The notes under the pieces were generated by a model. The model had not been told where the DNA came from and ran no database searches. It worked only from the letters and a program-made list of their open reading frames with translations. This document shows, piece after piece, positions 32,798-64,000 of a stretch of DNA of 64,000 nucleotides. Made by a program: the position numbers and the translations under genes. Location: positions 79,085 to 143,084 of the forward strand of contig JAGVIE010000006.1 in the NCBI GenBank assembly GCA_020056225.1, given 5' to 3'. Origin of the DNA: Bacteroidota bacterium (GTDB lineage: Bacteria; Bacteroidota; Ignavibacteria; UBA10030; SZUA-254). Each line of letters opens with the position of its first letter. Within the stretch, counting starts at the first letter, position 1.

Positions 32798-32822
32798 AGA
32801 AATTCTCTTTCGCTTAGTTTTC

Positions 32823-32953
32823 GGCTAACGTCTCGCAAAACATCACAGTATTTTTGTGAACACATAAATCTCATTTGAGCAAACAAAAGATATTAAGCGA
32901 GGCTTTTAAATCTATGGCTTTGCATTCGAGCGTCGGTGTTTTGCGTGTTAAAC
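32823..32953. repeat. attC-like palindromic repeat, site B
   Basis: Read on the reverse strand: GTTTAAC (fits RYYYAAC), then CGCAAAAC, about 90 bases with further internal pairing, then GTTTTGCG (8-bp complement of the inner arm) and GTTAGCC (one mismatch to GTTRRRY). Total 131 bases, inside the size range of integron attC sites. The zinc-ribbon gene begins 25 bases after it and the HEPN-like gene ends 17 bases before it, the normal place for attC at a cassette's 3' end. Homologous to site A. Confidence 0.6.
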
Positions 32954-32970
32954 GCCGGGAGTGGCATCGA

Positions 32971-60932: not shown

Positions 60933-63166
60933 ATGCAAAAAATATTTCAACAAAACATAATTTATATTTTATCTCTCATCATAATTGTCATGAGTGTTAA
61001 CCGTGCATACTCGGAAGAGAAATTCGGAAGCATTTCGGGTGAAGTGCGCGATGCAGTAACGAAGCAACCACTGCCAGCGGCAAATGCCATGCTTGTGGGA
61101 ACTAACTCCGGTGCATCAACTAACGACAATGGATATTTTGTTATAAAAAATATTCCGATCGGTGTCTATCAATTAAAAGTGTCGTATATCGGTTACAACA
61201 ATTTCATCAATGATGATGTTCAAGTTGTATTAAACCGAAACACGAATATGTAGTAGTAACCGGAGGATATTTTCAGAAACCTACGGAAAGCACTGTTAGC
61301 TATCGAACGCTTTCGTCACAAGAGATTCGACGCTCTCCCGGCTCGGCAGAAGATATATTTCGGGTGATGCAATCGTTGCCGGGTGTTGCAACTGCTGGCG
61401 GTAAAAGCGCTCAGTTGATTGTTCGCGGCGGAAGTCCTGACGAAAATCTAACACTGCTCGATAATATCGAAATCTATAACCCAATACATTTTGCACGCAC
61501 AGGTGAATCGATGGGAATCATAAGCATAATAAATCCTTCGTTGTTGAAAGAAGTAAATTTTATGACGGGCGGTTTTCCGGCTAAGTATGGTGATAAAATG
61601 TCGTCTGTGTTCGATATGACTATGGTCGATGGTAATAAGGAATTACACAATATCGATGTCAATGCAAATGTAGCCGGCTTCGGATTGATGGTAGATGGAC
61701 CGGTGATGGATAACGGCACAATGGTTTTTTCTGCACGACGCGGTTTATTTGATATGCTGACATCAATTCTCAATCGACCCGCGGCCCCAAGTTATTATGA
61801 TGCTGTAGGAAAGTTTACATACGATTTAAATGCCAAAAATCGATTGAGTCTTGTCGGTTTTTATTATCTCGATCAGATAGAGCGTGAAGGGACTGTAAGA
61901 ATGAAAAGTTCTACCGATACCGGTAAGTATAATTATTTAACGCGCGATGATTATGGAACTGCATTCGGTGTTAATTGGCGTTATCTCTTATCGCCGAAAG
62001 CTTATAGTTTAACTACTCTGTCATTTTCGGGTAACGGCTGGAATACTCTTCGAGGCACCGAAACTCAAAGAGATTTAATAGGTGAAGATATTCTTGAGAA
62101 CAGCTATACCTTGAAAAATGAAATCACTTATCAAATAAAATCTAATCTTGATATTAAAAGCGGAGTTCATGTTCGATTTATCGAATCGGAACATATAACA
62201 TGGAAACCCGCCGACACTACTCGGCTTGGGCAAATTATTCCTGCGTCGTCAATTTCTTATCTACCCGATTTAAGTAATAAAACATCCGTATTTATGCAAA
62301 GCACATGGAGCCCATGGGTGCGATTATCTTTAACTGCCGGCGGACGTTATGATTATTTCTCCTTCACAAAAGAAGAAACATTTAGTCCGCGCTTGTCAGC
62401 TTCTTATCATCTGACAGATAGAACATCTTTCAACATGGCGTATGGCAAATATTATCAAACCCCTGCATCATACCAGATTGCCCTCGATCCACTCAATCAA
62501 CAGCTTCGCAGCAGCAGTGCGATCCATTATATTATTGGTGTAGAACAACTCCTCCGCGATGACATCCGTGCAACGCTTGAAGTGTATCATAAAGATTTAT
62601 CGAATGTTATCGTAGGAAACGACACAACCGATATTCTATACAATACTGGAAGCGGTTACGCGAGAGGAATTGAATTATCTCTCCAGAAAAAATTTACAGA
62701 TGGATTTGTTGGAACGGCATCGTATACTTTTTCCGAGTCGAAGCGGCAAGATGCTGATGGACTTGCCGAGTATTATTTCGAATTCGATAGACCCCATATC
62801 CTGAATCTGATTGCAGGCATTGAGCTTGGCGAGGGTTGGCAGCTTGGTGCAAAATTCCAATATTCATCCGGTAATCCCTTTACACCCGTTGCGGGCGTAA
62901 CGGAAAAGAACGGTACTTTTTATGTGGTCGACGGCGATTACAATTCAGACCGGCTTCCCGCTTATCACAAACTTGATGTCCGTTTCGATAAGAAGTTTGT
63001 TTTTAACGCTTGGACTTTGACCGCATATCTCGACCTTTGGAATGTGTACAACCGAGAAAATATATTAGATTATTCTTACAAAGTCGATTCTAACGGTCTC
63101 ATCACAGAAACGCCGAGGTACGATTTTGGAATATTACCGATTATTGGGTTAACGGCGCAGTTTTAA
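60933..63166 (+). pseudogene. TonB-dependent receptor, frameshifted near the plug
   Basis: Two ORFs (60912..61253, 61364..63166) in different frames make one receptor. The first holds a signal peptide and a carboxypeptidase-regulatory-like domain (ISGEVRDAVTKQPLPAANAM, GVYQLKVSYIGY) and stops at NRNTNM. The second frame is open from about 61249 and continues EYVVVTGGYFQKPTESTVSY, a plug domain (VMQSLPGVATAGGKSAQLIV) and a 22-strand-type barrel ending LPIIGLTAQF. About ten residues usual at the join are missing, so a small out-of-frame deletion is likely. Probably inactive, unless it is a sequence error. Substrate unknown. Confidence 0.85.
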
Positions 63167-63336
63167 ATATCAGATCAATATATTTATTAAACATCGTAGC
63201 TTTTCAATGAATTCAAACAACAAAAAGAAATTTCAATCGAGTCGAAGATTCGTAGAAGGGATGAGTCCGAAACAAGTTTGACTTTAACATGAGCTTTTCG
63301 TAATATTTGCGGTGATAGATTCTTAGGCTTATTAGA

Positions 63337-63399
63337 GTCTAACATTCACACTGCCTGCATGTTAGCTCGATTTATTGGCAGTATAATTAATAGTTAGGC
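63337..63399 (+). repeat. attC-like site before the last ORF
   Basis: GTCTAAC (RYYYAAC) at the left and GTTAGGC (GTTRRRY) at the right are complementary at six of seven positions; inside them ACTGCC and GGCAGT pair. Length 63 bases and box order R''-L''-L'-R' fit integron attC sites. Spacers are unequal (6 and 10), which is untypical. The next gene begins 18 bases after the right box, as in a cassette. Confidence 0.5.
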
Positions 63400-63416
63400 G
63401 GGCGAAAATCATTATT

Positions 63417-64000
63417 ATGAAAATTAAAGCATCCATTATCCTATTCCTTGCATTTACTGCAAATTCATTTGCACAGTCCATAAATTCGGACAATCAAACA
63501 TTGCAGATTGACATTTCATCAATAAAGGAACTTAATAATATTAAAGTGTTATATGATATTCCCAATCTTTTGCACCCAACTATATATTATAGAAATGACA
63601 CAATCGATATTTCAAAATATGTAATAATTACTCCTAGAAACCGTTATATCCTTGGTGAAACTGAGAATCATCCCGAAAATTATATTCATTCAAAAAAAGT
63701 TGTAAATATTAATAACCATATAAGTTATAATGGTTACATAATTTGTCTTTCCGACGAAGTTTATGGTAAAGACGTTTTAATATGGAAAAAGAAAAATCAA
63801 GGATATTCTTTAATTGCAATCTATCCAAGCGAAATAGGCATTTGTTTGTATTGCAGCCCTGATTTCTATACATCCAATGTAGATACATTCTCAATTGGGT
63901 CCATTGATCTTCCCCCTAATTTTCGGACAGAGAGAAAAGCCAGTATATTAGAGAAAAGGAGAAGTCCGAAATGGAAGCAGAACAAGTCAGAAGAAGAAGA
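63417..64000 (+). CDS. Secreted protein of unknown function, cut by window end
   Basis: An ORF missing from the supplied track because it has no stop before the window ends. ATG 63417 opens MKIKASIILFLAFTANSFAQ, a clear signal peptide, then 174 more codons without a stop: YYRNDTIDISKYVIITPRNR, YIICLSDEVYGKDVLIWKKK, LYCSPDFYTS, and a Lys/Arg/Glu-rich end. AT-rich codon use and placement straight after an attC-like site suggest a cassette gene. No family recognised. Confidence 0.75.
   Translation, partial: MKIKASIILFLAFTANSFAQSINSDNQTLQIDISSIKELNNIKVLYDIPNLLHPTIYYRNDTIDISKYVIITPRNRYILGETENHPENYIHSKKVVNINNHISYNGYIICLSDEVYGKDVLIWKKKNQGYSLIAIYPSEIGICLYCSPDFYTSNVDTFSIGSIDLPPNFRTERKASILEKRRSPKWKQNKSEEE

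Follow-up and report, generated by a model that had tools for sequence, protein, structure and literature searches.

A probable attI-type platform among scattered, integrase-less cassette sites in an Ignavibacteria genome

Near the right end of the window (the whole 64,000-nucleotide stretch of DNA analysed here) a 63-base palindrome stands directly before a gene for a predicted secreted protein, and the question it raises is whether it is the attC of a gene cassette, as a first-pass annotation had proposed, or a platform at which cassettes are inserted. The boxes named in that annotation lie where it had placed them (GTCTAAC at 63337-63343, GTTAGGC at 63393-63399, with ACTGCC and GGCAGT between), the spacers between boxes measure 6 and 10 nt, and a two-box palindrome scan returned this site as its sole match in the window, against a mean of 0 in shuffled windows. 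Also as annotated, the open reading frame begins 18 bases after GTTAGGC and meets no stop before 64000. The layout is that of a conserved core, ATAATTAATAG^TTAGGC, preceded by a pair of interlocked inverted repeats (Table 1). We consider it probable that this is an attI-type platform, filled by an integron integrase (IntI), within a dispersed integrase-less integron, and that an insertion sequence (IS) later entered the cassette seen in the window.

Table 1. Features of the site and its cassette, in window coordinates; C12 is another contig of the same assembly
Feature	Position	Strand	Support
Candidate cassette promoter: TTGAC 63278-63282 and TAATATTTG 63301-63309, 18 nt apart	63278..63309	+	judged by eye
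Putative hairpin H1: CTAACAT 63339-63345 / ATGTTAG 63359-63365	63339..63365	+	per-site shuffle test; covariation
Putative helix H2: ACTGCC 63350-63355 (inside the H1 loop) / GGCAGT 63377-63382, the inner boxes of the first-pass annotation	63350..63382	+	swap test; covariation
Probable attI core ATAATTAATAG, with the crossover predicted after G63393	63383..63393	+	identical at other loci of this genome
Cassette start TTAGGC (with G63393, the right outer box GTTAGGC)	63394..63399	+	GTTAGGCGGGCG exactly complements CGCCCGCCTAAC on C12
Cassette gene, 5' part, ~162 codons, predicted secreted protein	63417..63904	+	in-frame continuation on C12
CAT, 3-bp IS target duplication	63902..63904	+	CAT recurs past the other IS end on C12
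IS3-like element, left end, TGATCTTCCCCCTAATTTTCGGAC...	63905..64000	+	same 96 bp at ~27 other contig ends

The same element is found beside intI in relatives. In genome G020, where its core is identical, it follows an intact IntI of 321 aa by 142 bp, and in Stygiobacter electus it lies 105 bp after a 338-aa IntI, with a near-identical core; in L104, a third relative, it follows a C-terminal remnant of IntI, and G005 carries a variant of it after its own IntI. The window copy has no intI nearby. The intact cases of G020 and Stygiobacter read (A/T)TAATTAATAG and then TTATAC, and the third array of G013, a genome of another genus, also ends G^TTATAC, which suggests a native attI whose right side is TTATAC. 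A G^TT crossover joins the platform to its first cassette: for the window cassette, the start is complementary to the R'' that the same cassette has on C12, and for the C6b copy, similarity to G013 stops at this junction. We searched 98 genomes of the order with the exact core followed by GTTRG and obtained 21 occurrences in 8 genomes, against 3 for the reversed control. A longer pattern, run over a collection of 85,000 species, retrieved 12 stretches, one from a Patescibacteria bin and nearly all of them carrying the label Ignavibacteria, Bacteroidetes or Chlorobiaceae. The core alone (GTNTAATTAATAG, one mismatch allowed) gave fewer matches than its reversed control and was discarded as a search key, being useless without the GTTAG end. 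Separately, attI-like cores were seen in pairs, 831 bp apart in G001 (contig C204, L129) and 3.2 kb apart in L099, in both with ORFs and no canonical attC between them.

Comparison with the rest of the genome showed that the window site is one of at least seven scattered attI-type copies at separate loci; cassettes spread through the genome, which the first-pass annotation expected if both of its proposed sites were real, are thereby confirmed. The core (ATAATTAATAGTTAG) occurs on contigs C6 (twice), C9 and C15, with variants on C4 (TATTAATAG) and C32 (ATGATTAATAG), and the 26-nt 3' half of the 63-bp site is repeated at positions 44096-44121 of C6. Each copy stands directly upstream of an accessory ORF. 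Downstream of these ORFs are canonical attC sites or their left halves (CTAACCNGNCNCTCAAGCTG), with cassette ends that pair with cassette starts; at six of the at least seven sites, the window's included, the cassettes have full attCs or halves of them. On C9 and C6 there are at least two attC with no intI nearby, which makes them CALINs, and the window locus alone falls short of that number. C15 is interrupted, before any attC is visible, by an IS of the kind found in the window; the array on C35 was considered as its continuation and rejected, no matching R'' being found. A longer series of small accessory ORFs, all on one strand, occupies C32 (L176, L163), with the variant GGCGGGATGATTAATAG^TTAAGG at its head, and one of its products resembles, by eye, a cassette product of C35. 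On C4, ~4.4 kb past the platform (L037:11594), a second copy of TTGAAACCATATATTAATAG, then TTATGTG, stands directly before another ORF.

Scattered sites with no neighbouring intI would also be expected if IntI had put cassettes into target-like spots of the genome (attG) that are not attI at all, an established insertion route (cited in PMC12901181 and PMC12444791). We regard this as unlikely, since the sites have in common an 11-bp core and hairpins, with leader sequence added in subsets, and since they match attI linked to intI. Further, attG sites have been described as strongly divergent in sequence and structure (PMC12901181), unlike the targets in this genome.

The 3' part of the cassette gene downstream of the site could be recovered. 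The assembly is a draft of 62 contigs, and contig C45 (143,084 bp) physically ends at position 64000 of the window, which stops there because an IS3-like element splits the cassette: host sequence ends at 63904, and what follows is the end of a repeat common to ~27 other contig ends. On the reverse strand of C12 the other IS end comes first, preceded by a frame reading RRHSAIGYQSPVQFE, and then CATTAACTATGAGG; in the window the sequence directly before the IS is ...GGGTCCAT. CAT thus flanks the element on both sides, a 3-bp target duplication. Once the flanks on C45 and C12 are joined, an uninterrupted 303-aa frame results. The first-pass annotation had proposed looking to the right for an attC past the ORF's stop, and half of one is present on C12 beyond the IS: the left half CGCCCGCCTAACCAGGCGCTAAAGCTG lies 453 bp from the IS end, past the stop, and there the cassette start GTTAGGCGGGCG has its exact reverse complement, CGCCCGCCTAAC. 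Inspection of C12 past this left half showed no recognisable right half; the gene that follows encodes an AHSA1-type protein. Searches for the cassette protein gave no match in Pfam or NCBIfam for the window part, none in Pfam for the C12 part and none among plasmids. The interrupting element, whose interior is unassembled, shows TG...CA ends, the CAT duplication and the frame reading RRHSAIGYQSPVQFE; it may belong to the IS3 family, and it probably inserted into the cassette gene after capture.

Genome G013 offers two of the loci with other contents. C6 of the present genome is syntenic with contig C3 of G013, the neighbouring genes being mostly 70-99% identical. At the first locus a left flank of 377 bp, 91% identical, stops at AATAATTAATAGTTAGG, and the cassettes beyond it differ. 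At the second the core is identical and the cassettes again differ, with a next gene that is 98.8% identical. The similarity between the C6b copy and G013 ends at the expected crossover point. Flanks are therefore conserved at two loci where cassettes are not. At a third locus of G013 the present genome has neither core nor cassettes; platforms have therefore been gained or lost. The TonB-type receptor gene upstream of the window site (61364-63166) encodes a protein 90% identical to one of G020, a genome of another family, with 84% DNA identity over 2.6 kb, so that horizontal transfer is possible. The neighbourhood of that gene in G020 (C47) was considered as an empty site and proved uninformative, the similarity ending at the gene.

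The inverted repeats upstream of the core appear to form a conserved fold. In many copies H2 abuts the core and has its 5' strand in the H1 loop, the layout of an H-type pseudoknot. Over 28 sites, complementarity of H2 was 12.8 within a site and 10.9 for swaps between sites (permutation p 0.0002). In six aligned homologues, which were picked for a visible fold and for which the controls correct only partly for relatedness, 90.5% of cells are paired overall (H1 95.8%, H2 83.3%). Four H1 pairs show double changes in these six; double changes number 8 in all, where shuffles give 2.8, and in slid controls pairing drops to 24-48%. The copies on C9, C4, C6a and C15 have no clear H1/H2 fold, C9 having H2 only. 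A covarying two-helix fold in what is probably an attI is surprising.

Such a fold raises another possibility, that the element is a promoter with a regulatory leader RNA which travels with accessory genes and whose link to attI is incidental. Promoter-like signals do lie upstream, in a 64-bp segment (63258-63321) that shares 84% identity with the leader of the C15 platform; TATAAT is present, the pseudoknot-like fold would fall in the presumed leader, and the tandem cores of G001 have no attC. The window had no Rfam match at gathering thresholds, with sub-threshold matches only at 60-64 kb. We regard this reading as unlikely too, slightly more so than insertion at attG: the end of the core coincides with the cassette crossover, and the core sits at the 3' ends of intI genes. 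A role as RNA may exist alongside the role as attI. A plain promoter, TATAAT being within the core, does not suffice on its own, given the association of the core with cassette junctions and with intI, and was rejected as a full account.

To return to the attC reading, we built a covariance model (R1) from seven attCs, those of C4 and C9 on this genome among the training set. It recovered C4 and C9 and also, from outside the training set, C6b (E 2e-4); C32 gave a weak match (E 0.26) and looks attC-like on inspection. The window site gave no match at E<=1, nor did it appear in a genome search at E<=5, which was the outcome of the covariance search that the first-pass annotation had suggested. 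The least probable of the alternatives is that the palindrome serves as attC to a cassette upstream of it: it does have an R''-like GTCTAAC, an R'-like GTTAGGC and a 6-bp inner stem, but R1 fails on it, its R'' and the R''/R' pairing are unconserved in homologues, one spacer has 10 nt, the homologues adjoin intI, and upstream there is no cassette ORF, only the end of the TonB-type receptor gene. What stands of the first-pass interpretation is integron DNA, a cassette gene in the ORF and dispersed cassettes; the attC identity gives way to an attI-type one. The unequal spacers, which the annotation had counted against itself, were a clue, because the conserved feature is the attI core with its hairpins and not an attC. 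The other site proposed there, at 32 kb (32820-32960, minus strand, GTTTAAC-ac-GCAAAACA...TGTTTTGC-gagac-GTTAGCC), lies between two minus-strand ORFs and has an attC-like look; R1 gave no match to it, and inspection of the upstream sequence by eye revealed no attI core.

Searching for the integrase, we found no protein over the cut-off of TIGR02249 in this assembly, only Xer-like proteins below it, an absence that applies to a draft, and drafts can miss plasmids. The two best matches exceed the cut-off of the XerA-type model NF040815, and all four recombinases of the genome lack the IntI-specific insert. Two XerA/IntI-like tyrosine recombinases of ~300 aa lie at contig ends, in the first ~1.1 kb of C59 and C52 (L017, L018); they were considered as divergent IntI and rejected, since they lack that insert. 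Among the genomes that carry the core, IntI over the cut-off is found only in G020 and Stygiobacter; G047 and G071 have multicopy cores, yet only weak Xer-like matches.

The attI-type reading may be put together as follows. Positions 63337-63393 would be the left part of an attI from an integron family of this order, Ignavibacteria-like by the named records that were matched. An integron integrase, either working in trans or now missing from the assembly, would have inserted a circular cassette between G63393 and T63394 by recombination at its folded attC, leaving the cassette gene ~24 bp past attI, where it could be transcribed from a promoter upstream of the site. At least seven promoter-plus-attI platforms would then exist at separate loci, most of them filled with one to several cassettes, and an IS3-like element would later have entered the window cassette gene and broken the assembly. 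We infer that IntI made the insertions, in trans or before its loss, and that the promoter works. Counting against the reading are the lack of an IntI over the cut-off here and in most genomes with the core, the copies that have no clear H1/H2 fold, the tandem cores of G001 and a promoter judged by eye. A bolder proposal, which we put forward tentatively and think more doubtful than not, is a split integron, in which integrase-less promoter-attI sites at fixed loci across genera are served by one integrase in trans and attI is recognised or controlled through the pseudoknot-like fold rather than through sequence alone.

Normally there is one attI per integron, beside intI (PMC9024848, PMC3607928), and recognition of attI, as double-stranded DNA, depends on its sequence (PMC8946536). 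It is surprising to find integrase-less attI platforms in multiple copies and retained across genera, and a functional fold would call into question the view of attI as read only as double-stranded sequence. Complete integrons have already been reported in Chlorobi and Ignavibacteriae (PMC9024848). The literature searched, which excludes most subscription journals, gave us no description of attI platforms that are dispersed, conserved and integrase-less and have a covarying fold. Outside class 1 integrons attI is poorly described, and IntegronFinder does not detect it there (PMC9024848); the sites described here provide a signature by which attI can be searched for in one bacterial order, and they indicate that a genome can have several copies of attI, away from intI. 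Genus pairs with the same site and different cassettes are a record of cassette exchange at dispersed sites.

Like class 1 attI1 and Treponema attI, these sites meet their first cassette at a G^TT crossover, lie next to intI in relatives and have promoter-like signals upstream, with intI pointing toward attI, as it is transcribed in Treponema integrons (PMC3607928). They differ from the attI of chromosomal integrons in reaching at least seven copies in one genome without intI and in their covarying two-helix fold. The arrays on C9, C6 and C32 resemble CALINs in that their attC cassettes have no integrase next to them; attC is the sole defining feature of a CALIN, whereas the arrays here are headed by a common attI-type site. 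Several of the platforms have one recognisable attC, under the default CALIN threshold of two (PMC9024848). Cassettes in such genomes would be reported at best as CALINs, and single ones would be missed at default settings. Delta-attI-type gene cassettes of mobile integrons carry partial attI copies at cassette ends (PMC12901181). They too place pieces of attI away from the usual position; here it is a promoter-attI module that heads dispersed chromosomal cassettes. Loot et al. (2024, Nat Microbiol 9:228) have reportedly described attG sites, with cassettes inserted at many genomic places. The likeness lies in those many places; attG sites are described as divergent from classical att sites, whereas the sites in this genome match intI-linked attI.
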